DNA of 64,000 nt, from positions 274,810 through 338,809 of the forward strand of contig NZ_LWDV01000007.1 of NCBI RefSeq assembly GCF_001693735.1, read 5' to 3'. Of this stretch, positions 21,790-58,222 are shown one piece after another. Below the pieces are notes generated by a model. That model had not been told where the DNA came from and made no database searches. It was given only the letters and a program-made list of their open reading frames with translations. Origin of the DNA: Orenia metallireducens. Its GTDB lineage: Bacteria; Bacillota; Halanaerobiia; Halobacteroidales; Halobacteroidaceae. The position numbers were made by a program, and so were the translations under genes. The stretch's first letter is position 1. Each line of letters opens with the position of its first letter.

Positions 21790-23613
21790 TTATTCTACAG
21801 TTACACTCTTAGCTAAATTACGTGGTTGATCAACATCACAACCACGCTCTACAGCTACATAATAAGCTAATAGCTGAGTTGGTACTACTGACAAAATGGC
21901 AGTCAATAACTCATCTGTTTTGGGTATTTCAATTCTATAATCTAAATCTTCAACCTCATCTTCACCTTCAAATACAATACCTGTAACAACACCACCACGA
22001 GCTTTAACTTCTTTAACATTACTTAAAGTCTTATCAATTACTGATTTTTGAGTTGCTAAAGCAATTACTGGAATTCCTTCTTCGATTAAAGCTAAGGTTC
22101 CATGCTTTAACTCACCAGCTGGATAGGCTTCTGCATGAATATAAGAAACCTCTTTTAATTTTAATTGACCTTCTACAGCTACAGCATAATCGATACTTCT
22201 TCCAATAAAGAAGGCATGCTCATGGTCAGCATATCCCTTAGATAATTCTTTAATCTCTTCTTCACTATTATTAATAATATCCTCTACCTGATTAGGTAAA
22301 GCTTTAAGACCAGCAATCAACCTCTTACTGTCTATATCACTTAACGTATTTTTAGCTCTAGCAAAGTAGATAGCTAACATATAAAAAGACATCAGCATTC
22401 CAATATAAGCTTTAGTAGAAGCTACTGCAATCTCTGGCCCTGCTTGTATATAAATAACCTCATCAGCTTCACGGGCAATTGTACTACCAACAACATTACA
22501 AATAGCCACTACCTTAGCACCTTTATCCTGAGCTTCTCTTAAGGCTGCTAAAGTATCTGCTGTCTCTCCAGATTGACTAACTACAATTACTAAAGTACTT
22601 TCATCTACTAATGGATCTCTATATCTAAATTCCGAAGCAACATCAATCTCTACTGGAATCTTTGCTAGCTTTTCAATAGCATACTTTCCAACCAATCCAG
22701 AATTGTAGGCAGTTCCAGCAGCTACAATATAAATTTTATTATAAGAGTCAATATCTTGTGCTGTTAAAGTAAAATCAGTTAACTGTATATCAGTCTCTGT
22801 TAGTCTACCAGCAATACATCTTCTTAAAGTCTCTGGTTGTTCATGAATCTCTTTTAACATAAAGTGATCAAATCCTGCTTTTTCTGCCATCCCAGGATCC
22901 CAATCGACCTTAAATACATCTTTATCTACTTTTTCTCCTGTTACAGTAGATAATCCTACTCCATCGCGAGTAATTACAGCCATTTCACCATCATCTAAGA
23001 TATAAACCTCATCAGTATGCTTTAAAATAGCTGGGATATCAGAACCAATAAAGTATTCTCCCTCACCTAAACCTATAATTAAAGGACTATCCTCTCTTAC
23101 AGTAATTAATTTATCAGGCTCTTCAGAAGATAAGATAGCCAAAGCATAAGCCCCTTCTAATCTGGCAATTGTCTTTCTGACTGCTTCTTCTAAATCACCA
23201 TCATAATTTTCCTGAATTAAGTTAGGGATAACCTCAGTATCAGTTTCTGACTTAAATTCATATCCTTTACCCTTTAACTCTTCCTTTAACTTCATATAAT
23301 TCTCAATAATTCCATTATGAACTACTGTAAATTTTCCGTTAGCACTTGTATGGGGATGAGAGTTAGGAGTAGATGGCTTACCATGAGTTGCCCAACGGGT
23401 ATGACCTATTCCGATACTACCCTTAGGCTCTTCTTTATCAGTTAAATCCTCTAGATTTTCTAATTTACCAACTATCTTAAAAGTATTAATCTGTCCATCA
23501 TTATATAAAGCAACACCAGCAGAATCATATCCACGATACTCTAACTTCTGTAAACCTTCTACTAAAATTGGACTAGCTTCTTGCTTTCCGATATAACCGA
23601 CAATTCCACACAT
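21790..23613 (-). CDS. glmS: Glutamine-fructose-6-phosphate aminotransferase
   Basis: 607 residues, full length. It makes glucosamine-6-phosphate from fructose-6-phosphate and glutamine, the first step to UDP-GlcNAc. The N-terminal glutaminase starts MCGIVGYIG with the nucleophile Cys2 and has HTRWATHGKPS. Two SIS isomerase domains follow (AAGTAYNSGLVGKYAIEKLA and GRSIDYAVAVEGQLKLKEVS). It ends in the conserved LAKSVTVE. A glmS ribozyme is encoded in its leader, so glucosamine-6-phosphate down-regulates its mRNA. glmM lies upstream in the same direction. Confidence 0.98.
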   Translation of the reverse strand: MCGIVGYIGKQEASPILVEGLQKLEYRGYDSAGVALYNDGQINTFKIVGKLENLEDLTDKEEPKGSIGIGHTRWATHGKPSTPNSHPHTSANGKFTVVHNGIIENYMKLKEELKGKGYEFKSETDTEVIPNLIQENYDGDLEEAVRKTIARLEGAYALAILSSEEPDKLITVREDSPLIIGLGEGEYFIGSDIPAILKHTDEVYILDDGEMAVITRDGVGLSTVTGEKVDKDVFKVDWDPGMAEKAGFDHFMLKEIHEQPETLRRCIAGRLTETDIQLTDFTLTAQDIDSYNKIYIVAAGTAYNSGLVGKYAIEKLAKIPVEIDVASEFRYRDPLVDESTLVIVVSQSGETADTLAALREAQDKGAKVVAICNVVGSTIAREADEVIYIQAGPEIAVASTKAYIGMLMSFYMLAIYFARAKNTLSDIDSKRLIAGLKALPNQVEDIINNSEEEIKELSKGYADHEHAFFIGRSIDYAVAVEGQLKLKEVSYIHAEAYPAGELKHGTLALIEEGIPVIALATQKSVIDKTLSNVKEVKARGGVVTGIVFEGEDEVEDLDYRIEIPKTDELLTAILSVVPTQLLAYYVAVERGCDVDQPRNLAKSVTVE

Positions 23614-23659
23614 ATATATTACCTCCCATATATTTAAATTTCAATGTTCAAAATAGCTA

Positions 23660-23815
23660 TTCTTAAATTCCTTTGTCATCAGGATTGCTCCTAACTTTTA
23701 AGAATTTAGTTATAGGCTAATAGCTCTAGCCTGAGGGTATCCGCCGAAAGTTCGATAATCCCTCTCCTCGTCAACTCATAATCTATTCCGTCCAATTATG
23801 AGTTCGGGCGCTATA
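23660..23815 (-). promoter_or_regulatory. glmS ribozyme (glucosamine-6-phosphate-activated, self-cleaving)
   Basis: On the minus strand the leader holds the conserved pieces in order. AGCGCCCGAACT is at 23801-23812, then a P2 hairpin whose arms are ACTCATAAT and ATTATGAGT. These are followed by GTTGACGAGGAGAGGG, TTATCGA, TTTCGGCGGATACCC and a closing GGCTAGAGCTATTAGCC stem. By family knowledge the cleavage site is between the A and G of AGCGCC (complements of 23812 and 23811). It lies between glmM and glmS, so processing would separate the two mRNAs. The downstream boundary is approximate. Confidence 0.95.
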
Positions 23816-23875
23816 ATTATAAAGTGAGAGCTAGTTTAAGCTTAAGAACCAAAAATCTTTAACCTCAAACTCAAA

Positions 23876-32987: not shown

Positions 32988-33112
32988 GATCTTCCCCTCC
33001 CTACCTTACCTTATATTTTATCCTTTTTGACTAAAATAAACCAAGTTATAAGAATATTTTTCATTTTATTTCACCTACTTATTAGACTGAAGGTTAAAAT
33101 TAATAAAGAAAT

Positions 33113-34233
33113 CACTAACGTTGCATTGTTGAAAATAATCAAATAAGATTAAATACTATACATGCTATTTATAACTTAAAATTTAAATAGGACGAATATC
33201 CTATTAGTAAATTTAATAAATCAAGTCAAGAATATAACATTAAATTAAAAATATAGAATAAATTTCTTTGATGAATTAAAATTAATCCAAATTAAACAAG
33301 TTTTTTAAAGTCAGTGGCTATTTAGCCATATATACCAACTAAATGTTCTTTTAACACATGAAAATATTGAATATTTTATTTTTTGAATAAGCTTAAGCAA
33401 AGTGCCTTTAAATTTAACTTCTTTCTTAATCACCTTTAAAATTAAAAATAGAATTAAAGCACTATAAATCTGGATTAAAACAACATTTCTATTTTGTCCA
33501 AAGAATCTTTTTATCTTTAGATGTTGCTTAATCCATTTAAAGAATAACTCTATTTCCCAACGTTTTTTTATATGACTTTGCTATAATATGAGCTTCCAAA
33601 TCAAATCGATTATTTAAAATATCAATTATTTTTTCTTTGTTATCTCTATCAATTGTTTTAACTCTAACTAATCTCATTTCATGTTTCATTCTAGTTTTAG
33701 AAGTATGATCACCAAGCATAACATCAGCATCTAGTAAAATATTTGATTCTTTATCTTTGGTGTTTAAATCTACAGGATTAATGATTTCAATTTTAGTATT
33801 TGACTTTACTCTTGTTACAAAATAAATCCTGAAAAATTCCAACAAATATTTGATAATTTCTGCTTTCGTTTTTTCGAGATAATTGAGATTCACTTATCTT
33901 TAGCAAGACTTTATTTAGATTTTTATTGTTTGCTAATTCAAAAAAGTCTTCTAAGCTATCTTTTTCTGTAAGGTTGTAACAAGTATAGCAAATGTATTTT
34001 AGTTGTTAGCTTGTGTACTTTATAGTCTGAATTATATTTATTGGCTAGATCTCTGAAGAAATCCTTATCGATAATATCTAGAAATTTGTTTAAAAGTATA
34101 GTACAATTATTCATAAATTGATTCTCCTTTGATTTTATGGATTTTTATACTGGGCGGTACTCATCTATTTAATCAAAGGAGTTTTCTTTTTGCAATATAT
34201 TTTTTGTATAATTATTTAGATGCAACGTTAGTG
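33113..34233 (-). mobile_element. Defective IS4-like insertion sequence with intact ends
   Basis: The ends are perfect 14-bp inverted repeats (CACTAACGTTGCAT at 33113-33126 and its complement at 34220-34233). Outside them lies a 9-bp direct repeat TAAAGAAAT (33104-33112 and 34234-34242), a target duplication. At 1121 bp the element is shorter than usual for the family (about 1.4 kb), because the transposase lost its middle part. The flanking duplication being perfect suggests a fairly recent insertion of an already defective or later-decayed copy. Confidence 0.88.
33311..34114 (-). pseudogene. IS4-family transposase, internally deleted and frameshifted
   Basis: The N-terminus starts at 34114 (MNNCTILLNKFLDIIDKDFF) with AAAGGAG before it. 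A shift near 33965 moves the frame to NLTEKDSLEDFFELANNKN. After SESQLSR the part with the first two catalytic Asp residues is missing, and the sequence resumes at FRIYFVTRVKSNTKI. The 118-codon open frame at 33537-33893 is this middle piece. Another shift in a run of seven A near 33565 leads to the C-terminal Y-K-K-R-W-E-I-E-L-F-F-K-W-I-K signature with the catalytic Glu. With the missing Asp residues it cannot be active. Confidence 0.85.
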
Positions 34234-34339
34234 TAAAGAAATATAAATTTAAATTATATTTTTTTGAAAGAATATGAAGGATAAAAGCGATTTTTGTCTA
34301 ATTAGATATTATAGAAGGAAATATATTGTCAAATAACCA

Positions 34340-34368: not shown

Positions 34369-34380
34369 AGTAATTAAATA

Positions 34381-34466
34381 GAAAGGGCAAACATACCAAA
34401 AGGTATGGACGCAAAGCCATGGGTCTAAGGATATAGTATTTATATCTATGATTGCCAGGTTGCCAT
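34381..34466 (+). promoter_or_regulatory. Cyclic di-GMP-I (GEMM) riboswitch
   Basis: Conserved pieces in order: AGGGCAAAC, stem ATACC/GGTAT with an AAAA tetraloop-like turn, GGACGCAAAGCC, ATGGGTCTAAGG, a variable P3 hairpin and the closing ATTGCCAGGTTGCC. These are the hallmarks of the c-di-GMP-I aptamer. A rho-independent terminator follows at once. GTTGCCA (34459-34465) can pair either with the 5' arm of P1 (GGCAAAC) or with TGGCAAC (34482-34488) inside the terminator. Ligand binding should therefore favour termination, making an OFF switch (inference). Confidence 0.93.
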
Positions 34467-34473
34467 TATTTGA

Positions 34474-34581: not shown

Positions 34582-35724
34582 TTGAAACTTCAGTTAAAAA
34601 AACAGCTATTATCTAAAGTAAACTTGATGATACTTGTGATAATATTAATTAGTTTTTCTTTAGTAATAGTTAGTTTCACACAAGAACAGATTGGTAGAGC
34701 AATATTTCAAACAATAATCTTGGCTGTTTTAACTTTTTTGGGGTTATCTAGTTTATTTAACCAGCTTAATAAACCCCCCTCAAAATCAACAAATAATTTA
34801 CAATCAAAACTAACAAAATTTATTAATGGAGGTAACAAAATAACTCAATTAATAGTTGAAGTAGATGATGATGTAGATGACTTAACTAAAACATTTAATC
34901 AAGTAATACTAAATCTACAAGAAACTTTAAGTAAAATAGTTAAAGAAACTGAAGATATTGAAGATACTTCTCAATTATTAAAAGAAGCATCTAGTGAAGG
35001 AAATATAATAATTGAACAGGCTATTGACACTATCCAAAGTATCTCTACTGCTATAGAACAAATTTCTGCTAGCAATCAAGAAATAAGTATCTTTTCTGAG
35101 CATACAAGCCAAGCTGCTCAAGAAGGTAAAGAAGATATTGAAAAAGCCATTGAACAGATTGAAAGTATTAAACTAGTAACCCAAAATTCAACAACACATA
35201 TGGAAAGGCTTAATGAAAAAACTGGACAAATAAACCAAATTGCTGATCTTATTACTAACATAGCAGATCAAACAAACCTTTTAGCTTTAAATGCAGCTAT
35301 TGAAGCTGCACGGGCTGGAGAACATGGAAGAGGATTTGCTGTTGTAGCTGAAGAAATTAGAAATTTAGCTGAAGAAACTGCTGGTGCAACAGGAAAGATC
35401 ACTGAATTAATTAAAGATATTAAATTAGAAACTAATCAAGCTTTAACTGCATCTAAAAATGGGAAAGATGAAGCACTAAAAGGGCAGACGATTATCACTC
35501 AACTTGGTAATAACTTTAGTAAAATTTTAGAACAGATTGAAGAGACTACTTCTCAAATTCAACAAGCAACTGCTGCTACAGAAGAATTAGCTACAGAAAG
35601 TGATGAAATGGTTAATATGACTGATGGAGTTAAATTAATTATGGATGAAATCATCAATTCTACAACTTATATGTCCGATAGTTTACAAGGGTTATACCAA
35701 ATGATAGAGGAGTTTAAAAATTAA
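34582..35724 (+). CDS. Methyl-accepting chemotaxis protein without periplasmic sensor
   Basis: 380 residues. Two adjacent membrane helices at the N-terminus (about 12-32 and 42-60, [16 protein letters not shown] and [16 protein letters not shown]) have almost no loop between them, so there is no external ligand domain. The signalling domain carries the CheA/CheW-binding hairpin tip [20 protein letters not shown] followed by [14 protein letters not shown]. No HAMP is evident. It starts at a TTG with AAAGGAGG 10 bp ahead. Expression should depend on c-di-GMP through the upstream riboswitch. It is followed by a small STAS-like gene in the same operon. Confidence 0.92.
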
Positions 35725-36129: not shown

Positions 36130-36143
36130 AATTACATATCGAT

Positions 36144-36186
36144 AAAAAAAGGGGAATAATGATTTAAATCATTATTCCCCTTTTTT
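36144..36186. terminator. Bidirectional terminator between convergent operons
   Basis: A perfect 30-bp palindrome (36151-36180, arms starting GGGGAATAATGATTT), with seven A on the left and six T on the right. It can stop both the chemoreceptor operon (plus) and the NRPS gene (minus). Confidence 0.95.
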
Positions 36187-36201
36187 AATATCCTTTTAAA
36201 A

Positions 36202-39200
36202 CTATTTATGTTCAATATATCCAATACCTTGACAATAATCCAGAAGTCTTCTTATATATTCTGAATCAATTTTAGGCCAAACAAAACCTGCCTTCTCTAA
36301 AGCCTTCACAGTAAACGTAGTATCCATCTTTTCTTGAGTACCTTCTTCAATAAAGTTATGAACACCAGCTGCTAGATCGTTAAATAATGTACTTAACTCT
36401 CTTTCAAAATCAGAATTTTTAATTCGATTAGAAATCAAATTATAAAATTCTTGGTCATCTACTTCTTCTATCAAATAACCTGCTTTATTAATGCCACTAA
36501 TGAACTCTCTCATAGGAATCAAATTGGCATTCATCATATGGAAGTTATATCCTATAGACTCTTCCCATAAAATCAACTTGACCATAGCTTCGCTACATGT
36601 ATCTACTGCCGTAAAGTCACTTCTATAATCCATATAAGAACTTGGTGCTTTAGCAAGAGAAATTAAACCTTTAGTATTGTTATAGAATCTATTTTCAATG
36701 ATATTCTCTTGGAAGTGTCCATCTTCATATCTCCCAACTAAAAGACCAATTCTGTAAATGGAAGCCTTTAATCCCTTATTTCTAGCTTGATATACTACTC
36801 TTTCTGCCTCAAATTTACTCTTACTATAAACATCAGTCATAAAGTTCTGCCCAATATTAAAGTCACTTTCTTTAAATTTTCCTTTTCTACCCCCTTCACC
36901 GACGATGCTTATAGTGGAGGTATGATGAAACTTTTTCTCTTTACCCACCAAACAGAAGTCTACCAATCTTTGAGTACCAAAGACATTAATATTTGCAAAC
37001 TGTTCATACTTTCCATAATGCCTTACATCTGCTGCAGAATTGATAACTGTATCAATCTTATTAGCTAATTCTTGATAAAGCTCATCTTCAATTCCTAAGT
37101 TATCCTTAGTTAAATCCCCTTTAATAGCAATAATTCTATTATCTAAATATCTATCTAGTTTTTCACCAAAATAAAAATTTAACCTCTTCTTTAATCTAAG
37201 CCTAGGTTTATCATCATTCTTATCCCTTAACAAACAATAAATAGTTGCATCAGTTTCAGTAATAAGGTCTCTTAATACATGAGAACCTAAAAAACCAGTA
37301 GCACCTGCTAATAATATATTCTCTGGATTAGCCTTAGTAATAGATAATTTATCAAAAGCTGCCAAATCATATTCTTCCATTGAAACTTCCTCTAAGTTGT
37401 CTTCTAAAGAGACTGAAACCTCCTCTAAAGCAGACATTACTTCTTCTAAACCTCTCTCTTTTATCTGTTCAATCTTCTCTGCTAACTCCTCAATTGTTGG
37501 TGTGGAATAAATCTCTCCAATAGGAATTAAAACCTCACACTCCAATTGAATCAGCTGCATCATTTGTATTACTGATAATGAACTTCCACCTAAATCTAAA
37601 AAGCTATCCCTGATTCCTATCTTATCTATTTTCAATATTTTCGCCCAAATTTCAACTAACTTCTTCTCTAATTGGGTACGTGGAGCCATATATTTTACTC
37701 CAGTATCTATCTCTGCATTAGGCTCTGGCAATGCTTTTCTATCTACCTTACCATTATGGTTAAGAGGCATTTGATTTAGCTGGATAAAGTATGATGGAAT
37801 CATATAAGTTGGAATCTTCTTCTCTAAATAAGAACGAATCTCTTTAATACTTAATTCTTTCTCCTTAATAGGTATAATATAAGCAACTAAACGTTTATCT
37901 CCAGAACCAAAATCCTTGGCTAATACTACAACCTCTTTAATTTCAGGGTGCTTTAGTAGAGCAGACTCTATCTCACCTAACTCTATTCTAAAACCTCTAA
38001 TTTTAACCTGATGGTCTATTCTACCTAAATATTCCATATCACCATTACTTAGTAATCTGGCTAAATCTCCTGACCTATATAATCTCTCATCTGGATTATA
38101 TGGATTAGTAACAAACTTCTCATTAGTCAGCTCTTCTCGATTTAAATAACCTCTGGTTACTCCCTCACCACCAACACATAACTCTCCTGGTACTCCTATT
38201 GGCTGTAATTTCAGATTTTCATCCATAATATAAGTAGTTAATGTTGGAATTGCTTGACCTATATTACTTACCCCTAGCTCTATCTCCTTCATTGTTATCT
38301 CTTTAAAGGTAACATGAACTGTTGTCTCTGTAATTCCATACATATTGATTAACTTAGTTGCTGGGTACTTCTCTTTCCACTCCTGTAACCTTAATGGGCT
38401 TAATGCTTCCCCACCAAAGATTACATATTTTAAGTTTAAGTCTTTATCTTCATGGGTTAGTTCTTCATTGATTAGATTATAAAAGGCAGATGGAGTCTGA
38501 TTTAATACAGTTACCTGTTGGTGATTTAATAAATCTCTAAATTTCTTAGTATCCCTTGCTATACTCTTAGATACTAAAACTAATTTACCACCATATAATA
38601 AAGCTCCATACATCTCCCAGACTGAAAAGTCAAAACAATAGGAATGGAACATAGTCCAAACATCATTACTGTTAAAATCAAATTGAAATTTATCATTAAA
38701 TAACAATCTAACTAAATTTCTATGCTCTACCATTACCCCTTTAGGCTTACCAGTAGTTCCTGAGGTATAGATAATATAAGCTAAATCATTGGGATTATTT
38801 ATATTTTCTAGATTGCTACTATCACCCTGATAGATACTCTTATCATCTAGATAGACTCTTTCTTGGTTAAAGTCTACTACATCTTTTAAGTTACTGGTAG
38901 TTAACAAGATAGCTGTCCCACTATCTGCTAAAATATAATCTATTCTATCCTGAGGATAAGTAGGATCAATTGGTACATAAGCTCCCCCTGCTTTCAGAAT
39001 TGCCATAATACTAATTATCATCTCTAAAGAATCTTCGACCAATATTCCTACTAAATTATCTGGTCTTACTCCTTTAGCCCTTAGTCTTCTAGCCAGTTGG
39101 TTTGATTTTCGATTCAATTCTTGATAGGTTAATTCTTTATCCTCAAATACTACTGCAATACTCTCTTTATTATTATCTACCTGCTCTTCAAAGATTTGCT

Positions 39201-42200
39201 GGATTGTCTTCTGCTGTGGATAATCAGCTTGAGTATCATTGAATTTACTTAATAATTCTTCTTTTTCTTTATCAGATATCATCTCTATTTCTGACAACTT
39301 AATCTCTGGATTCTCTACAACCTCTTTGATGATATTAATTAAGTGATTAGAGAAACGCTCTATAGTCTCTTGCTTAAATAAGTCAGTACAATACTGTAAA
39401 TCAAATTTAATTCCTTCTTCTTTTTCTACCCCTTCTAACAATATATCAGCCTTGGCATTATTATATCTAAAATCAATAGGTGTTACATCCAAACCACCAA
39501 ATTGCATCTTTTCTAAATTAATACTCTGTAAGACAAAGGCTACATCAAAAAGAGGATGTCTACCTAAATCTCTTTTAATATCCAACTCATCAACTAAATC
39601 TGCTAGTTGATAATCTAAATTCTCATAAGCCTTTAATGCTTTATCTTTTACTTCACTTAGAAACTCTCTAAAGCTTTTATTAGCACTAGGATGATTTCTT
39701 AAAGCAAGAGTATTTACAAACATTCCAAATATATTCTCTAAATCAATATGAGGTCTTCCAAACATAGGAGAACCAACTATAATATCTTCATCACCTGTGT
39801 ATTTGTATAATAAAGTATTATAAATAGCAAGTAAACCCATATATAAGGTTGTATTATTCTCCTTTACTAGCTCTTTTAATTTATTACTTATATCTTTATC
39901 AAGAGTAAAGGTAATATTTTCTCCTTCATAACTTTTAACCTTTGGTCTTGGATAATCAGTTGGCAGATTAAGTATAGGTACTTTACCTTCAAATTCATTC
40001 AACCAATACTCTTTCTGTCTCTCTATTAAGTCATTATTATCAAGTTGTTTTCTTTGCCATACTGCATAGTCTTTATAAGTCTTCTCTAAAGGTTCTAATT
40101 CCTCACCTTCATATAACTTCTTAATCTCTTCTATCATAATCTCTAAAGAAGCACCATCCATCATAATATGATGAAGAACAATTAAAAGATAATATCTATC
40201 TTCTTCAACCTTGACTAAAGTTACTCTTAATAATGGCGCCTTACTTAAATCAAAGGCACTTCCTAATTCCTCTAATACCTCTTCAATCTCATCTTCATCT
40301 CTTTTAATATAATTAATCTTAAAAGGAACAGTTTCATGTATTTTTTGCATAAATTGACCATTAACAACTTCAAATCCTGTTCTTAAAGATTCATGCCTCT
40401 TTATCAACTGATCAAAAATTTCTTCTAATTTATTAATATTAACCTTTCCTTCTATTAACAGACCAAAAGGTTCATTATAGTTTGTACTAGCTGGATCCAA
40501 TTCTGTCTCTATCATTATCCTCTCTTGAGCTGACGATAATGGATAGTATTCTCTTTCTTCTACCTGTTCTATTCCAACCTTGTCAACTTTCTCAGCCATT
40601 TCTATGTATTCAGCCAGTTGTTTTATCTGGGATCTTTGACTAATCTCTTTTAAAGAGACCTCAACACTCAACTCTTGGTAAATTCGATTAGAAAGGCTTA
40701 TCAACTTTAATGAATTTCCTCCTAGAGCAAAGAGGTCATCATTCATCCCAATCTTCTCTATTCCTAATATACTTTCACAAATTCTAATTAGTTCTTTCTC
40801 CATCTCACTTTCTGGTGCTAAATACTCTACCCCTGTATCTAAGGTTCCATCAGGTTCAGGTAATCTCTTTCTGTCTATCTTACCATTTTGGGTAAGTGGC
40901 ATTTGTTCTAACTGAACAAAATAAGCAGGAATCATATAATCAGGTAAATCTTCAGCCAAAAATTCTCTTAATTCAGCTATTGTAAACTCTTTATTTCCAG
41001 TTATATATCCACATAAGTAACTTACACTCCCATTTTCCCCTTTAGCTATAACTATTGCTTCCTTAATAGCAGGGTGCTCTAATAATTTACTCTGTATCTC
41101 ACCCAACTCAATTCTAAATCCTCTAATTTTAACCTGATGGTCTATCCTTCCAATAAACTCTACATTTCCATCACCTAACATTCTTACTAAATCTCCTGTA
41201 CGATACATCTTTCCTTCACCAAAAGGATTATCAACAAAAACTTCAGCGGTCTTTTCTGGTCTATTTAAATATCCCTTAGCCAAACCATCACCAGCTATAC
41301 ATAACTCCCCTGGCACTCCTATTGGCTGTAAGTTATTATTCTTGTCCAAAACATAAAGTTCTGTATTAGCCAAAGGACTTCCAATTGGTATATTGTCAGC
41401 CTTCTCATCAATTTCATTAATATAATAATAAGTAGCATAAACTGTAGTCTCTGTTGGTCCATAAACATGAATTAACTTTTCTTTTCCTAAATAATCTAAT
41501 GCCTTTCTAGCATGAGGTACAGATATTCTCTCTCCTCCAAAGAGAATCTTTCTAACACCTTTTAGTGCCTCTAAGTTATTATCTACTAGGACATTAAATA
41601 AAGCTGTTGTTACAAAAAAGATTGTTATTTCTTCCTCTTTAATTAAATTAGACAGCTTATTTATCTCTAATAAGTTATCTTTACTTACCATTACTAATTT
41701 AGCACCATTTAGCAAAGCTCCGTAAATATCAAATGTAGAACCATCAAAAGCATAATTAGATAATTGGAGTATTCTATCTTCAGAATTAATATCAATGTAA
41801 TTAGTATTCTTAACTACCCTACTGATATTATAATGCATAGTTAAAATCCCTTTAGGTTTTCCTGTAGTTCCTGAGGTATAAACCATATAAACAATATCAT
41901 CAGGGCTATTTATATTCTCTAAATTAGATTTATCCCCTTGATACAGATTAATATCAGTTATATCTATAACCTCTCCAGTATAATCTATCTGATCTATTAA
42001 CTGAGTATGCCCTACTAAAATTTGAACTTGACTATCTTCTAACATATAGTCTATTCTATCTTTTGGATAATTGGGTTCTATTGGAAGATAGGTTGCACCT
42101 GACTTTATAATTCCCCAAATTCCAACCATCATATCTAAAGAACGTTCTACCATCAAACCTACAACTTTACCTGCTTTTACTCCTCTTGCTCTTAAGCTTC

Positions 42201-43098
42201 TAGCTAGTTGATTAGCTCTTTCATTCAATTCTAAATATGTTAATTGCTTATCTCCTAACTTTACAGCTACTTGATTAGGATTTTTAGCAACCTGCTTCTC
42301 AAATATCTCTTGTAAAGTTTCATCCTTTGGAAAATCAGTTACTGTATCATTAAACTCATAAAGTAATTTGTTCTTTTCTTCTTCTGAAATAACTTCAATT
42401 TGACCTAAAATAGTTTCAGGTTCTTCTACAATTATTGTTAAAATATTTTTAAAATGCTCTGATAATCTTTCTATTGTTTCTTCTTTAAATAAGTTTACAT
42501 TATAATTAATATTAAATTCAACTTTATTCCCTACTTCTCTTCCTAAGAATAAAATATCTATCTCAAACATTGTTGCTAGTATATCTTCAAGGTCAGCTAT
42601 GTTACTATTCAAAGAAAAAATAGTACTGAATATCCTTTCACCTTCATCTAAAGCCAATTCTTCAATTAAACAATCTAACTGGTAATCTTTATTATCATAA
42701 GCCTCAGCTTTATTTTTCTGTACTTCTAGTAAAAATTCTTTGAAATTCTTACTTTCTTTGGGGTTACTTCTCAAAGGTAATAACCTATCTTCATCTGATA
42801 AATTATTATTAACAGGCAAACCTATTACTATATCATCTTGACCTGTATACTTATACAATAAAATATTATAAGCTGCAATCAATAAATCGACTAACTTAAC
42901 CTTATAAAGCTCACTTAAAGAATTTAATTTAGTTACTAGTTCTTGATTTAATGTAAAATTACTAACTGCAAATTCAGAGTTTGATTCTGCTCTCATCTTA
43001 TAATCTGTTGGCAAATTAAGTGTTGGAATCTCCTCCTTAAATCTATTCAACCAATATTCTTTTTGTGCTTTCATTTGATTTTCTAATACGTCTTTCAT
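36202..43098 (-). CDS. Nonribosomal peptide synthetase, half C-A-PCP-C-A-PCP-reductase
   Basis: 2298 residues from the ATG at 43098 (AAGGAGGG ahead). Domains: C-terminal half of a condensation domain (about 10-240, no HHxxxDG); A1 (about 250-745, YTSGTTGKPKG); PCP1 (LGGNS, Ser near 796); full C domain with HHIMMDG (976-982); A2 (about 1300-1790); PCP2 (LGGSS); and terminal thioester reductase (about 1925-2298). The reductase has GATGFLG at 1932-1938 and Y-S-K-S-K catalytic Tyr/Lys at 2091/2095. Aligned by hand to GrsA, the A1 pocket reads D-G-F-F-L-G-V-V-Y-K (recalled Ile code) and A2 reads D-F-W-N-I-G-M-V-H-K (recalled Thr code). Reductive release should give an Ile-Thr aldehyde, which can cyclise. 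An Sfp-type enzyme is encoded 1 kb upstream. No transport or tailoring gene adjoins. Confidence 0.93.
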   Translation of the reverse strand: MKDVLENQMKAQKEYWLNRFKEEIPTLNLPTDYKMRAESNSEFAVSNFTLNQELVTKLNSLSELYKVKLVDLLIAAYNILLYKYTGQDDIVIGLPVNNNLSDEDRLLPLRSNPKESKNFKEFLLEVQKNKAEAYDNKDYQLDCLIEELALDEGERIFSTIFSLNSNIADLEDILATMFEIDILFLGREVGNKVEFNINYNVNLFKEETIERLSEHFKNILTIIVEEPETILGQIEVISEEEKNKLLYEFNDTVTDFPKDETLQEIFEKQVAKNPNQVAVKLGDKQLTYLELNERANQLARSLRARGVKAGKVVGLMVERSLDMMVGIWGIIKSGATYLPIEPNYPKDRIDYMLEDSQVQILVGHTQLIDQIDYTGEVIDITDINLYQGDKSNLENINSPDDIVYMVYTSGTTGKPKGILTMHYNISRVVKNTNYIDINSEDRILQLSNYAFDGSTFDIYGALLNGAKLVMVSKDNLLEINKLSNLIKEEEITIFFVTTALFNVLVDNNLEALKGVRKILFGGERISVPHARKALDYLGKEKLIHVYGPTETTVYATYYYINEIDEKADNIPIGSPLANTELYVLDKNNNLQPIGVPGELCIAGDGLAKGYLNRPEKTAEVFVDNPFGEGKMYRTGDLVRMLGDGNVEFIGRIDHQVKIRGFRIELGEIQSKLLEHPAIKEAIVIAKGENGSVSYLCGYITGNKEFTIAELREFLAEDLPDYMIPAYFVQLEQMPLTQNGKIDRKRLPEPDGTLDTGVEYLAPESEMEKELIRICESILGIEKIGMNDDLFALGGNSLKLISLSNRIYQELSVEVSLKEISQRSQIKQLAEYIEMAEKVDKVGIEQVEEREYYPLSSAQERIMIETELDPASTNYNEPFGLLIEGKVNINKLEEIFDQLIKRHESLRTGFEVVNGQFMQKIHETVPFKINYIKRDEDEIEEVLEELGSAFDLSKAPLLRVTLVKVEEDRYYLLIVLHHIMMDGASLEIMIEEIKKLYEGEELEPLEKTYKDYAVWQRKQLDNNDLIERQKEYWLNEFEGKVPILNLPTDYPRPKVKSYEGENITFTLDKDISNKLKELVKENNTTLYMGLLAIYNTLLYKYTGDEDIIVGSPMFGRPHIDLENIFGMFVNTLALRNHPSANKSFREFLSEVKDKALKAYENLDYQLADLVDELDIKRDLGRHPLFDVAFVLQSINLEKMQFGGLDVTPIDFRYNNAKADILLEGVEKEEGIKFDLQYCTDLFKQETIERFSNHLINIIKEVVENPEIKLSEIEMISDKEKEELLSKFNDTQADYPQQKTIQQIFEEQVDNNKESIAVVFEDKELTYQELNRKSNQLARRLRAKGVRPDNLVGILVEDSLEMIISIMAILKAGGAYVPIDPTYPQDRIDYILADSGTAILLTTSNLKDVVDFNQERVYLDDKSIYQGDSSNLENINNPNDLAYIIYTSGTTGKPKGVMVEHRNLVRLLFNDKFQFDFNSNDVWTMFHSYCFDFSVWEMYGALLYGGKLVLVSKSIARDTKKFRDLLNHQQVTVLNQTPSAFYNLINEELTHEDKDLNLKYVIFGGEALSPLRLQEWKEKYPATKLINMYGITETTVHVTFKEITMKEIELGVSNIGQAIPTLTTYIMDENLKLQPIGVPGELCVGGEGVTRGYLNREELTNEKFVTNPYNPDERLYRSGDLARLLSNGDMEYLGRIDHQVKIRGFRIELGEIESALLKHPEIKEVVVLAKDFGSGDKRLVAYIIPIKEKELSIKEIRSYLEKKIPTYMIPSYFIQLNQMPLNHNGKVDRKALPEPNAEIDTGVKYMAPRTQLEKKLVEIWAKILKIDKIGIRDSFLDLGGSSLSVIQMMQLIQLECEVLIPIGEIYSTPTIEELAEKIEQIKERGLEEVMSALEEVSVSLEDNLEEVSMEEYDLAAFDKLSITKANPENILLAGATGFLGSHVLRDLITETDATIYCLLRDKNDDKPRLRLKKRLNFYFGEKLDRYLDNRIIAIKGDLTKDNLGIEDELYQELANKIDTVINSAADVRHYGKYEQFANINVFGTQRLVDFCLVGKEKKFHHTSTISIVGEGGRKGKFKESDFNIGQNFMTDVYSKSKFEAERVVYQARNKGLKASIYRIGLLVGRYEDGHFQENIIENRFYNNTKGLISLAKAPSSYMDYRSDFTAVDTCSEAMVKLILWEESIGYNFHMMNANLIPMREFISGINKAGYLIEEVDDQEFYNLISNRIKNSDFERELSTLFNDLAAGVHNFIEEGTQEKMDTTFTVKALEKAGFVWPKIDSEYIRRLLDYCQGIGYIEHK

Positions 43099-43482
43099 TT
43101 TTGTAGCAACCCTCCTTAATTTGTACATTGTTCAAGTTTTAATAAATATAGTAGTCGTTCACTAAATATCTAATATCTTCAATAAAAGATACTTTAGTGA
43201 CTATATCCTCGAATCTATTATATTTTAACTACTAATAATTATATAATTCTGCCATTGATTTCAAAACTCCTTCTTTATTTACATAAGAATATGGTTTTAT
43301 TACTATTATTTTATAATATGAGTTCAATCCTTAATTTTCTTATTTTACTAAAATCATATTTTTAATGGATATTCTACAAGGATATCTTTATTTGGTGTAG
43401 AATAGTGTAAATAGGATATAAATTTACATAACTATCATCATATTAAAAATATATCCTTAAACTAATCAATGGAGGGAAATCT
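43099..43482. other. Intergenic region between the divergent NRPS and NTF2-like genes
   Basis: 384 bp holding the start regions of both genes. On the minus strand TTGAAA and TATAAT (near 43237-43263) could promote the NRPS, though the spacer is only 15 bp. An inverted repeat TTCTACA-N17-TGTAGAA lies at 43373-43403, upstream of the NTF2-like gene. No trace of the missing N-terminal half of the first C domain is seen. Confidence 0.4.
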
Positions 43483-43884
43483 ATGAATGATCAGAAGAGA
43501 GATTTGGCTATTTCTAAAGTTAATCAATTTCTAGATGCACTAAAAGAAGGTGATTTAGATGGTATGAAATCAACACTACACTCAGAGGAATTCGAATGTT
43601 TAGAAAGAGGTGAAAAACTGGCAGACACTAGAAAAGACTTTATCAAAATATTTGAACATGAATTTAAGGCAGGATTAGAGTTATATAAAATAGAACTTGT
43701 AGACAAAGAAATTTCAGTATTAGATTCTGATAACAATATTAAAATTAAGGGAAGACAAGTTCATGATGTAAAAGACCCAGGTAAAACACGTGAAATACAG
43801 GAATTTATCTTTGCCTATGAATTAAAAAATATTAATGAAGAATGGTATATTAATAAGGTAATTATAGATGATATTGAAGATTAA
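43483..43884 (+). CDS. Probable NTF2-like/SnoaL-fold protein
   Basis: 133 residues, soluble. It opens with a helical segment (AISKVNQFLDALKEGDLDGM) followed by strands (IELVDKEISVL, IKIKGRQVHDV, IQEFIFAYELKNINEEWYIN). This is the typical layout of NTF2-like cone folds (helix, then KLx-D-G-W-x-I last strand). No catalytic residues can be named. GGAGGG ribosome binding site. Divergent from the NRPS; a role in that pathway is possible but unsupported. Confidence 0.6.
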   Translation: MNDQKRDLAISKVNQFLDALKEGDLDGMKSTLHSEEFECLERGEKLADTRKDFIKIFEHEFKAGLELYKIELVDKEISVLDSDNNIKIKGRQVHDVKDPGKTREIQEFIFAYELKNINEEWYINKVIIDDIED

Positions 43885-44032: not shown

Positions 44033-44719
44033 TTATATATGCTCTTTAAAATCATTGATAATTTCATTTACTGATGAAATTATCAACTCATCTTCCTGCA
44101 ACTTACCCTTGACACAGCTAGCCATTTTATAATCTCTATCAATTTTATATTTTTTAAAAGTATATAAGCCACTTCTATTTTGATCTTCTAAAAAGATATT
44201 CTTATCACGATCAATTATTGTAAATTGATTTAATGGTATTGATAAGCCCATACCAACTGCTTTTATATAACTCTCTTTTAAGGTCCATAAATTATAAAAA
44301 TAACTCAATTGATTATTTTTAGTCATTAATTCCTCATATTCTTTCTTTGAAAAAAATCTTTTAGCTATATTTAAATCAATTGCTTTGACTTCTTCTATAT
44401 CTACACCAACTTCTCTTTCACTTATAGCACATACTACCCATCTTCTAGAATGCGATATGTTAAAATAAAGATTATCATAACCTTTCAAAAATGGTTTACC
44501 ATAATTATTATTTTCAAAGATAATTTGATTATTCTTTAAATCTAGCTTCTCACAAACTAGCTTTCTGACTAAAATTTCTCCTATTATGCTATGATAAATA
44601 TCTTCTTGCCTTAAAAATCTGCTGATTTTATCCTTCCTTTTTTCAGAGAGATAAGGAATTAAGCTTTTTAATCTAAAATCATCTATCTCTTCCTGTTTGA
44701 CCGCATAAACCTCCAACAT
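44033..44719 (-). CDS. Sfp-type 4'-phosphopantetheinyl transferase
   Basis: 228 residues. Family motifs: NISHSRRWVVCAI, GVDIEEVKAIDLNIAKRFF (metal-binding Asp and Glu) and NLWTLKESYIKAVGMGL (W-x-x-K-E-x-x-x-K). It loads phosphopantetheine onto carrier domains. With the NRPS gene less than 1 kb away, its PCPs are the likely substrates. It is separate from AcpS at 20367. Confidence 0.93.
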   Translation of the reverse strand: MLEVYAVKQEEIDDFRLKSLIPYLSEKRKDKISRFLRQEDIYHSIIGEILVRKLVCEKLDLKNNQIIFENNNYGKPFLKGYDNLYFNISHSRRWVVCAISEREVGVDIEEVKAIDLNIAKRFFSKKEYEELMTKNNQLSYFYNLWTLKESYIKAVGMGLSIPLNQFTIIDRDKNIFLEDQNRSGLYTFKKYKIDRDYKMASCVKGKLQEDELIISSVNEIINDFKEHI

Positions 44720-44746: not shown

Positions 44747-45499
44747 TTATATAACTGTATTCTTTAAAATACCAATCTCTTCAATCTTTACTTCTAATTC
44801 ATCTTTTACCTCTACACTACCTACCCCTGGAGGAGTTCCAGTAGCTATTATATCACCAGGCTTTAATGTCATTACTTGAGAGATAAAGCTGACTAACTCC
44901 TTAACTGAGAATATCATTTGATTAGTATTAGAGTCTTGTTTTATCTTCCCATTATGAATTAATTGAATTCCCAAATTATTAGGATCTAAATCAGTTGCTA
45001 TTGCTGGTCCTAAAGGAGCAAATCCATCAAAGGACTTAGCTCTAGTCCATTGCCCATCTCTATTTTGCAAATCTCTAGCTGTAATATCATTAAAACAAGT
45101 ATATCCTAAAATATGGTTCTCAACCTCTTTAGGACTTAAATCTTTAATCTCATTTTTGATTACAATAGCCAATTCTGCCTCGTAATCCACCTGTCTACTA
45201 ATCTTAGGATATTTAATCTTCTTATTTGGTCCATTTAGAGCAGTTGCTGGCTTCATAAAGATAACCGGCTCTTTAGGAAGTTCCATATTCATCTCTTTGG
45301 CATGGTCTTTATAATTAAGACCTACACATATTATCTTACTAGGATTACATGGTGCAAGTAATTCAATATTCACTAAGCGGTGGAAAATATTAGTTTTCTG
45401 ATAATCCCCAAAAATATCTCCTTCAAGCTCTTGTACATTATCATCCTCTAAGATACCATATTTAACCTTTTTTTCTGCTTTAAATCTAACAAATTTCAT
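44747..45499 (-). CDS. Fumarylacetoacetate hydrolase family protein
   Basis: 250 residues, one FAH domain (about 50-250): ICVGLNYKDHAKEMN, EPVIFMKPATALNGPN, metal ligands in VDYEAELAIVI and DITARDLQNRDGQWTRAKSFDGFAPLGP, ending GDIIATGTPPGVG. Typical of small hydrolase/decarboxylase/isomerase members that act on 2-keto acids such as acylpyruvates or oxaloacetate; the exact substrate is not clear. The ATG at 45499 is used, because an upstream GTG overlaps its AGGTG ribosome binding site. 27 bp upstream of the Sfp gene, so possibly in one operon with it. Confidence 0.88.
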   Translation of the reverse strand: MKFVRFKAEKKVKYGILEDDNVQELEGDIFGDYQKTNIFHRLVNIELLAPCNPSKIICVGLNYKDHAKEMNMELPKEPVIFMKPATALNGPNKKIKYPKISRQVDYEAELAIVIKNEIKDLSPKEVENHILGYTCFNDITARDLQNRDGQWTRAKSFDGFAPLGPAIATDLDPNNLGIQLIHNGKIKQDSNTNQMIFSVKELVSFISQVMTLKPGDIIATGTPPGVGSVEVKDELEVKIEEIGILKNTVI

Positions 45500-45540
45500 T
45501 CTACTCACCTACTTTTATTTATTTTAAATTTAAGTTTATA

Positions 45541-55573: not shown

Positions 55574-56053
55574 TTACTTCTTCCCTCTAGCCATAGCTAT
55601 CTTACCAGTTCTAACTAGTTCTTTAATCCCAAAAGGTCTTAATAACTCTTCAATTGCAGTAATTTTATCTTCATTCCCAGTAATTTCAACCATAATTGAA
55701 TCAGAAGCCACATCTACAATCTTTCCTCTAAAGATATCTACAATCTGCATAATCTCAGAGCGAGTAGTTGCAGTAGCCTTGACCTTAATTAAAGCCAACC
55801 CTCTACTAACAACTGATTCTTTAGTCAAATCACTGATTTTATGGACAACAATCAACTTATTTAATTGTTTAGTCAACTGCTCTAAAACCCTATCACTACC
55901 TTCAACAACCAAAGTAATTCTAGATATCTCATCATTATCTGTTTTACCAACAGATAAACTCTCAATATTAAAGCCCCTTCTGCTGAACAGACTGGCTATC
56001 CTAGCTAAGACCCCAGCTTCATTAGCTACTAAAACTGAAACTGTATGCTTCAT
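55574..56053 (-). CDS. ilvN: Acetolactate synthase small (regulatory) subunit
   Basis: 159 residues: N-terminal ACT domain (HTVSVLVANEAGVLARIASL, FSRRGFNIESLSVG) where valine binds in the family, and a C-terminal domain (ARGLALIKVKATATTRSEIM). The start overlaps the ilvB stop by one base (TAATG), so translation is coupled. It controls feedback inhibition of IlvB. Confidence 0.97.
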   Translation of the reverse strand: MKHTVSVLVANEAGVLARIASLFSRRGFNIESLSVGKTDNDEISRITLVVEGSDRVLEQLTKQLNKLIVVHKISDLTKESVVSRGLALIKVKATATTRSEIMQIVDIFRGKIVDVASDSIMVEITGNEDKITAIEELLRPFGIKELVRTGKIAMARGKK

Positions 56054-57789
56054 TATGCCTCCTCCTTTAAGACCATATTATCTAAGCTACCACCTGGTGG
56101 TACCATTGGGAATACATTCTCTTCCTCTTCTATAATAAAGTCTAGTAGGTAAGGGTGAGGACTATTAATTGCTTCCTCTAATGCTGGTCTTATCTCTTCT
56201 GCCTTTGTTATCCTCTTAGCTTTAATTCCATAAGCTTCTGCCAGTTTAACAAAATCAGGTGTTGTCACTGGGCAGTGATCCCCTGGTGAAGAGCATCCTG
56301 GAGGACAGCTCTCTTGCATCTTCAAACAGACTGATGAATATCTTCTATCATAAAACATCTCTTGCCATTGCCTTACCATCCCTAAGTATCCATTATTGAA
56401 GATAACGATATTTAATGGTAATTTATTCTTAGCTACTGTAGCCAGCTCTTGGACATTCATCTGAAAACTTCCATCACCAGCTAAAGCAAAAACTACACTA
56501 TCTTTATTACCAACTTGAACTCCTACAGCAGCTGGAAAGCCATATCCCATTGTCCCCAAACCTCCAGAAGTCATAAAACTTCTAGGCTTAGTATATTTAT
56601 AAAATTGGGCTGCCCACATCTGATGTTGCCCTACTTCAGTAGTAATTAAGGCTTCACCTTGGGTTAGCTCATCTATAGCCTCGATAATCTCTTTTGGCGA
56701 TAACTTCTTCTTATCTTTTCTAACTTGACTGACTTCATCTAATTTACGCCAGTTATCAATTAAAGCTAACCATTCACTTCTATCCTTCTCTTCAACCACC
56801 TTATTTAAAATAGTTAATATCCTCTTAACATCTCCAACTATTGGAATATCAACAAGTTTCCTTTTTCCTACCTCTGCTGGATCGATATCGATATGAATAA
56901 TCTTAGCATCTTTAGCAAAGGTATCAAGTTTACCTGTAACTCTATCATCAAACCTTGATCCAATTGCTATCAATAAATCTGCATTTGATATAGCTAGATT
57001 TGCTTCAGTAGTACCATGCATCCCTAGCATCCCTAGGCTCAATTCATCCCTTTCATTAAAGGCTCCAAGCCCTGTTAAGGTAGTAGTTACTGGAATATTT
57101 GCCTTCTTAGCTAACTCACGCAATTCATCACTAGCTTCTGAGATGATAACACCTCCACCAGAATAAATTACTGGATTTTTAGACTCATTAATTGCCTTAG
57201 CTGCTTCTTTAATTTGTAGCTCATGCCCCTCATAGTTTGGCTTATACCCTGGAAGATTAATCTTGTTTGGATATACAAACTCTGCTTCTTCTTGTAATAC
57301 ATCCTTTGGAATATCTATTAAAACAGGTCCAGGTCTTCCAGTTTTAGCAATATGGAAGGCCTCCTTAATAATTCTAGATAAATCCTTTACATCTTGAACT
57401 AAGTAATTATGCTTTGTAATAGGTGTTGTAATTCCTGTAATGTCTGCCTCTTGAAAGGCATCAGTTCCCAACATTGCTCTAGGTACCTGACCAGTAAAAG
57501 CTACAATCGGTACAGAATCCATATAGGCTGTCGCCAATCCTGTTACCAAATTGGTTGCCCCAGGTCCAGAAGTGGTAAGACAAACACCAACTTTACCAGT
57601 AGAACGGGCATATCCATCTGCTGCATGAATTCCTCCTTGTTCATGATGTGGCATAATATGTTTAAATTTTGAATCATACAATACATCATAAATTGGGATA
57701 ACCTTCCCCCCAGGATAACCAAAGATTATCTCTACCCCTTCTTTATAAAGGGACTCTACAAATATTTGAGCACCTGTCAATAACGTCAT
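56053..57789 (-). CDS. ilvB: Acetolactate synthase large subunit with Cys-rich insertion
   Basis: 578 residues, ThDP-dependent. Catalytic Glu in HHEQGGIHAADGYARSTG; FAD-related region AFTGQVPRAMLGTDAFQEAD; ThDP/Mg motif AGDGSFQMNVQELATVAKN ... NNGYLGMVRQWQEMFYDRRY. Between DRRYSS and TPDFVKLAEAYG, where most relatives have a few residues, there is a roughly 22-residue insert with four spaced Cys (CLKMQESCPPGCSSPGDHCP). The ATG at 57789 is chosen because a TTG 9 bp upstream abuts AAGGAG. First gene after the T-box. Confidence 0.96.
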   Translation of the reverse strand: MTLLTGAQIFVESLYKEGVEIIFGYPGGKVIPIYDVLYDSKFKHIMPHHEQGGIHAADGYARSTGKVGVCLTTSGPGATNLVTGLATAYMDSVPIVAFTGQVPRAMLGTDAFQEADITGITTPITKHNYLVQDVKDLSRIIKEAFHIAKTGRPGPVLIDIPKDVLQEEAEFVYPNKINLPGYKPNYEGHELQIKEAAKAINESKNPVIYSGGGVIISEASDELRELAKKANIPVTTTLTGLGAFNERDELSLGMLGMHGTTEANLAISNADLLIAIGSRFDDRVTGKLDTFAKDAKIIHIDIDPAEVGKRKLVDIPIVGDVKRILTILNKVVEEKDRSEWLALIDNWRKLDEVSQVRKDKKKLSPKEIIEAIDELTQGEALITTEVGQHQMWAAQFYKYTKPRSFMTSGGLGTMGYGFPAAVGVQVGNKDSVVFALAGDGSFQMNVQELATVAKNKLPLNIVIFNNGYLGMVRQWQEMFYDRRYSSVCLKMQESCPPGCSSPGDHCPVTTPDFVKLAEAYGIKAKRITKAEEIRPALEEAINSPHPYLLDFIIEEEENVFPMVPPGGSLDNMVLKEEA

Positions 57790-57802
57790 ACTTAGCAACT
57801 CC

Positions 57803-57876: not shown

Positions 57877-58222
57877 TATAAAAAACCTCTCATCTCAATT
57901 AACGGATTAAATCCATTAATTGGGACGAGAGGTCTTCTCACGTGGTACCACCCAAATTCACTACCATCTTAAAATAGCAGTCTCAATAAGTACTCTCATA
58001 CTAAATAATCTAGTACAATTTATACTTCAGCATATGATAACGGATGCTGTCTCCTAAAAACTAGGATTCCGGCAAAACCTACTTAGAATTTCCTTTCAAT
58101 TTTGCAGTTCAAGGGCTACAAAAATAATCCTTTAGATATCGGTTCTCAGCTACCCCGATTCTCTGTAATCCTAAAAATTATTTCCCTCCCTATCATAACC
58201 TTTAAAGAGTGTATGTTATTTA
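57877..58222 (-). promoter_or_regulatory. T-box leader of the ilv-leu operon
   Basis: On the minus strand the T-box sequence GGGTGGTACCACG lies at 57941-57953, ahead of a terminator. Upstream is Stem I with the AG-bulge pattern AGAGAATCGGGGTAGCTGAG (near 58146-58165). By comparison with known leaders the specifier could be GTA (Val, 58117-58119), just before GCCCTTGAAC, but this assignment is weak. Uncharged tRNA pairing at TGGT of the T-box would prevent termination and turn on branched-chain amino acid synthesis. Confidence 0.93.
57885..57932 (-). terminator. T-box terminator
   Basis: Minus strand ACCTCTCGTCCCAATTAATG pairs with its complement (57885-57904 side) around a short loop, followed by TTTTTTATAT. 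The 5' arm competes with the T-box antiterminator. Confidence 0.92.

Follow-up and report, generated by a model that had tools for sequence, protein, structure and literature searches.

A two-module, reductase-terminated peptide synthetase with predicted Ile and Thr specificity and its gene cassette in Orenia metallireducens

Relation to described dipeptide-aldehyde synthetases

The aureusimine synthetase AusA of Staphylococcus, with the domain order A-T-C-A-T-R, releases a dipeptide aldehyde, which cyclises to an imine and proceeds to a pyrazinone, the last oxidation being probably spontaneous (PMC12153313). What monoketopiperazines do in nature has been called elusive (PMC12153313). Dipeptide aldehydes are also the products of NRPS from gut clostridia (Guo 2017; ruminopeptin, Schneider and Balskus 2018), which were recovered in pyrazinone form once they had cyclised and oxidised non-enzymatically (PMC12327764). 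Compared by published description, the gut enzymes resemble the system presented here in their anaerobic hosts and in the dipeptide aldehydes predicted below.

Here, a 64,000-nucleotide stretch of the Orenia metallireducens genome, termed the window, encodes an NRPS with two A domains, two PCPs, one complete C domain and a terminal R domain on a single chain. Its orthologue (2066 aa, 77.8% identical) is found in Halonatronum saccharophilum DSM 13868, a member of the same family, Halobacteroidaceae. In common with AusA, the enzyme carries the A-T-C-A-T-R order on one protein, with a predicted branched-chain residue first and reductive release, and a PPTase lies nearby, as does the dedicated PPTase of AusA. 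It differs in its second residue, predicted to be Thr where AusA uses Tyr or Phe, in its neighbouring genes and in a shorter N-terminal extension (query 202 corresponds to profile 346), which is absent from Halonatronum. The likeness to AusA drawn in the first-pass annotation holds for the architecture and for the top NCBIfam match, the AusA equivalog NF047350, but the score of 1697 bits lies below the cut-off of 2500 (Halonatronum, 1564 bits), and the codes indicate Ile and Thr rather than Val in module 1 and an aromatic residue or Leu in module 2. None of the 398 genomes of the phylum sample passed the AusA cut-off. The enzyme kind itself is known; what is new is an A-T-C-A-T-R NRPS with an uncommon residue pair in a new gene context. 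The literature searched on gut dipeptide-aldehyde enzymes yielded no description of an Ile-Thr pairing or of the cassette partners, and we found no literature linking Halanaerobiales to a characterised NRPS product.

Domain layout, pocket codes and predicted product

The likely start of the NRPS is the ATG at 43098, which has AAGGAGG just 5' of it and had already been chosen in the first-pass annotation, in preference to the ATG at 43128, which lacks a ribosome-binding site. Pfam matches, whose E-values of down to 1e-186 per family rule out chance, comprise two AMP-binding, two AMP-binding_C, two PP-binding and two Condensation stretches and one NAD_binding_4 (171 bits). They reproduce the order half C-A-PCP-C-A-PCP-reductase previously read by eye, and the carrier serines, the HHIMMDG of the second C domain and the Tyr-x3-Lys of the reductase are all in place as claimed, together with the Rossmann motif GATGFLG (Table 1). 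The first Condensation match covers the C-terminal lobe only (profile 179-456), and the chain thus has no complete initiating C domain. As this half domain lacks the catalytic motif, the amine of the first residue should stay unacylated; its absence from the Halonatronum orthologue, which begins at A1, indicates that it is dispensable and hence that the alpha-amine should be free.

Table 1. Positions of the NRPS, its domains and neighbouring features in the window.
Feature	Position	Strand	Remarks
Dimodular NRPS with terminal reductase	36202..43128	-	2308 aa; likely start 43098
N-terminal half condensation domain	42379..43080	-	C-terminal lobe, no HHxxxDG; missing in Halonatronum orthologue
A1	40855..42375	-	Code DGFFLGVVYK, predicted Ile
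PCP1	40594..40806	-	LGGNS 40725-40711
Complete C domain	39229..40557	-	HHIMMDG 40173-40153
A2	37720..39228	-	Code DFWNIGMVHK, predicted Thr
PCP2	37477..37662	-	LGGSS 37593-37579
Thioester reductase (R) domain	36205..37353	-	GATGFLG 37305-37285; HTSTIS; YSKSK 36828-36814
Inverted repeat and T run, probable two-way terminator	36142..36189	.	24 nt, 96%; NRPS/STAS gap
STAS-like protein, 122 aa	35761..36129	+	By eye, no Pfam match; Halonatronum neighbour 77% identical
Methyl-accepting chemotaxis protein (MCP)	34582..35724	+	Halonatronum neighbour 63% identical
c-di-GMP-I riboswitch before MCP gene	34376..34467	+	Also at L003:16923-17009
SnoaL_3 (NTF2-like) protein	43483..43884	+	Divergent from NRPS; found only in two NRPS-bearing genomes
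Sfp/HetI-type phosphopantetheinyl transferase	44033..44719	-	
Transposon relic	33113-34233		118-aa ORF, weak DDE transposase match
FAAH	44747-45508		
cdaA	32235-32987		

A script anchored on conserved A-domain motifs returned the codes DGFFLGVVYK for A1 and DFWNIGMVHK for A2, and alignment of both orthologues gave the same two, letter for letter those read by hand in the first-pass annotation. The accompanying assignment to Ile and Thr is supported by ten-residue identity with characterised domains, namely module 1 of bacitracin synthetase for Ile (PMC2866473) and DhbF2, module 2 of Bacillus subtilis DhbF, for Thr (PMC4169593; see also PMC12283262). The bacitracin and DhbF lines have other end modules and thioesterase release, unlike the R-ending NRPS here. 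From these codes A1 is strongly predicted to load Ile and A2 to load Thr. In AusA-like enzymes A1 may have relaxed specificity, and an Ile code can also accept Val or Leu. Other R-terminated NRPS of the Bacillota sample carry different codes, and the Ile code reappears there in a four-module Paenibacillus line. In five genomes, the same sample also contains C-A-T-R synthetases (L043-L047) that consist of one module and measure about 1460 aa; three of them share the code DVWHFSLIDK.

Both pocket codes are unchanged in Halonatronum despite 22% protein divergence, and dN/dS between the two orthologues comes to 0.157 overall, with values of 0.14-0.19 when A1, C, A2 and R are taken separately. The NRPS is, on this comparison, under purifying selection, and the predicted dipeptide would therefore be conserved. 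An N-terminal half C domain without HHxxxDG, with no counterpart in the orthologue, might instead be a relic in a decaying line that has gone out of use. This is highly improbable given that all other motifs are intact, that the frame runs for 6.9 kb with no stop or frameshift, and that each of the four domains is strongly constrained; a pseudogene reading was dropped on the same grounds. An intact assembly line under selection is the preferred reading. It constitutes a pathway of a single, sharply coded enzyme, and a Pfam profile search of the source genome (3.47 Mb) of this halophilic anaerobe found no second C-domain gene. Besides the orthologue, Halonatronum has an ORF of about 1000 aa that contains parts of NRPS A domains (L024, L028; G003:C6:161285-163414).

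The best solved relatives of the R domain are 6vtj (NRPS; 175 bits), 4u7w (MxaA; 144) and 4f6l/4f6c (AusA; 110). These structures share its fold and motifs and mark it as a genuine NRPS reductase and not a thioesterase-like domain, in agreement with the earlier assignment. 6vtj is nearer to it than AusA's own R domain, and in a small tree the R domains of the window and Halonatronum form their own long branch. The release to an aldehyde or cyclic imine invoked in the first-pass annotation follows a logic established for AusA (PMC12153313). Ile would be loaded on PCP1 by A1 and Thr on PCP2 by A2, both carriers being potential substrates of the neighbouring PPTase, and the domain order implies that the single complete C domain would join them as Ile-Thr-S-PCP2. 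By analogy with AusA, the R domain would then reduce the thioester with NAD(P)H to an Ile-Thr aldehyde (C10H20N2O3, 216.147), which would react with its own free amine to form a cyclic imine (C10H18N2O2, 198.137). We consider it probable that this starter-terminator line makes one dipeptide, the Ile-Thr aldehyde or cyclic imine, and that its cassette moved as a unit.

Whether two or four electrons are transferred cannot be read from sequence, and an R domain reducing twice would yield the amino alcohol Ile-threoninol (C10H22N2O3, 218.163) and no cyclic imine. MxaA, the second-best solved match, is a four-electron reductase that makes alcohols. However, the characterised dimodular A-T-C-A-T-R enzyme, AusA, gives an aldehyde (PMC12153313), and a free amine beside an aldehyde cyclises quickly, so that double reduction appears distinctly improbable and the aldehyde and its imine are retained as the predicted products.

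Thr at position two introduces a further possibility, by chemical inference: aromatisation without oxygen, which would suit a strict anaerobe. The Thr-derived cyclic imine might lose the water of its 1-hydroxyethyl group and tautomerise to 3-sec-butyl-6-ethylpyrazin-2(1H)-one (C10H16N2O, 180.126), perhaps with help from the SnoaL-like protein. This would extend rather than contradict the predicted release. The formula balances without an oxidant, and, the family members being anaerobes, the imine is unlikely to be oxidised spontaneously by air in situ. Of the 13 genomes of the order, only the two that carry the NRPS have the SnoaL_3 gene, and the 398-genome phylum sample held no further match; with only two carriers, this co-occurrence is suggestive rather than statistical. 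The two proteins match SnoaL_3 at 23.7 and 34.7 bits (cut-off 22), and the SnoaL/NTF2-type superfamily includes dehydratases and isomerases; from its family membership the protein could be a candidate dehydration helper. Nevertheless, no catalytic residue was identified in it, its AlphaFold model, built from two sequences, though showing an NTF2-like order of elements, is of low confidence (pLDDT 49), its dN/dS is higher at 0.36 and SnoaL-like proteins have many unrelated roles, which leaves aromatisation unlikely. A comparison of the protein with solved structures gave no useful relative.

Proposed relocation of the cassette

In both genera the NRPS gene is flanked upstream by the divergent SnoaL-like gene and downstream by convergent STAS-like and chemoreceptor genes, the latter preceded by the c-di-GMP-I riboswitch. 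This cassette is missing from the other 11 genomes searched in the order. In the window the block sits between FAAH and cdaA, which are about 100 bp apart, with an empty junction, in the closest congener (G007; CimA 95%). FAAH and cdaA adjoin each other in Halonatronum too, with about 80 bp between them, but on a different contig from the NRPS block, which lies directly behind cimA. One block therefore occupies two chromosomal sites, and from this gene order we take the cassette to have relocated as a unit. The first-pass annotation had described a pathway of one enzyme plus Sfp. A PPTase is indeed nearby, but it is the SnoaL-like gene and the riboswitch-chemoreceptor-STAS module that travel along with the NRPS; the PPTase adjoins the cassette here, lies elsewhere in Halonatronum and is also present in genomes that lack the NRPS of the cassette, and is therefore not a fixed cassette part.

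An old cassette with relocation and losses is indistinguishable from old separate gains. Recent transfer between the two genera is unsupported, the NRPS identity of 78% being close to that of CimA (80%) and below that of LeuB (88%), and low GC is a weak sign of foreign origin (island 29.4%, window 32.7%, Halonatronum copy 29.7%). A plasmid search returned generic NRPS only, at below 60% identity, and no SnoaL relative. One edge of the block carries a degenerate transposon relic whose 14-bp inverted ends (CACTAACGTTGCAT) match perfectly, and the direct repeat TAAAGAAAT at 33104-33112 and 34234-34242 forms its 9-bp target duplication; there is no sign that the relic moved the block. The FAAH-cdaA interval varies within the family: in G006 it holds a sodium-symporter-like gene, in G001 an MCP gene (L076:13439-14755; L080:7341-8156). 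In G007, where the NRPS of the cassette is missing, a PCP-thioesterase ORF (L081:126-1892) sits close to the beginning of a contig and may be the tail of a different assembly line; an Sfp-type PPTase (L081:12578-13255), 49% identical, lies 11 kb from it.

Chemoreceptor linkage and a putative signalling role

The riboswitch scores 80.8 and 77.6 bits in the two genera against a gathering score of 35, and is one of seven of its class in the source genome. Chance could have placed the chemoreceptor, STAS gene and riboswitch beside the NRPS with no shared function, a reading that falls only a little short of an even chance. MCP genes occur elsewhere, as between FAAH and cdaA in G001, STAS paralogues lie apart from any NRPS in G000 and G007, and the NRPS and MCP genes are convergent and do not form a single operon. 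Yet both genera keep one gene order although the loci differ, and in the Halonatronum genome no c-di-GMP-I riboswitch was found other than the adjacent one. From this shared synteny we infer a joint function of the cassette genes. Given the convergent sides and the terminator-like repeat between them, the layout does not demonstrate co-regulation of the NRPS with the MCP and STAS genes.

The chemoreceptor linkage, which is positional only, suggests signalling, and it allows a concrete guess at the purpose of the molecule. Known bacterial signals and protease inhibitors include both pyrazinones and peptide aldehydes. In its fullest form, the guess would be a relocating signalling cassette in which the Ile-Thr aldehyde becomes an alkyl-pyrazinone without oxygen, by a dehydration that the SnoaL-like protein might carry out, and is sensed or responded to by a c-di-GMP-switched chemoreceptor and STAS protein; we regard this combination as very doubtful.

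Mini-ORFs with ribosome-binding sites lie 5' of the NRPS in both species (window 43098-43260; Halonatronum L003 upstream of 9004), encoding the peptides MAELYNY and MRNILLTTVKI, each ending at a stop. An attenuator leader at this position was rejected, the fold in the window being no better than that of shuffled sequences (z -0.45). Elsewhere in the window, a glmS ribozyme (23653-23823, minus strand; 125 bits) precedes a 607-aa ORF at 21790-23613, and a T-box leader (57918-58205, minus strand; 96.5 bits) precedes the ORF at 56053-57798 that heads the ilv/leu/cimA region.
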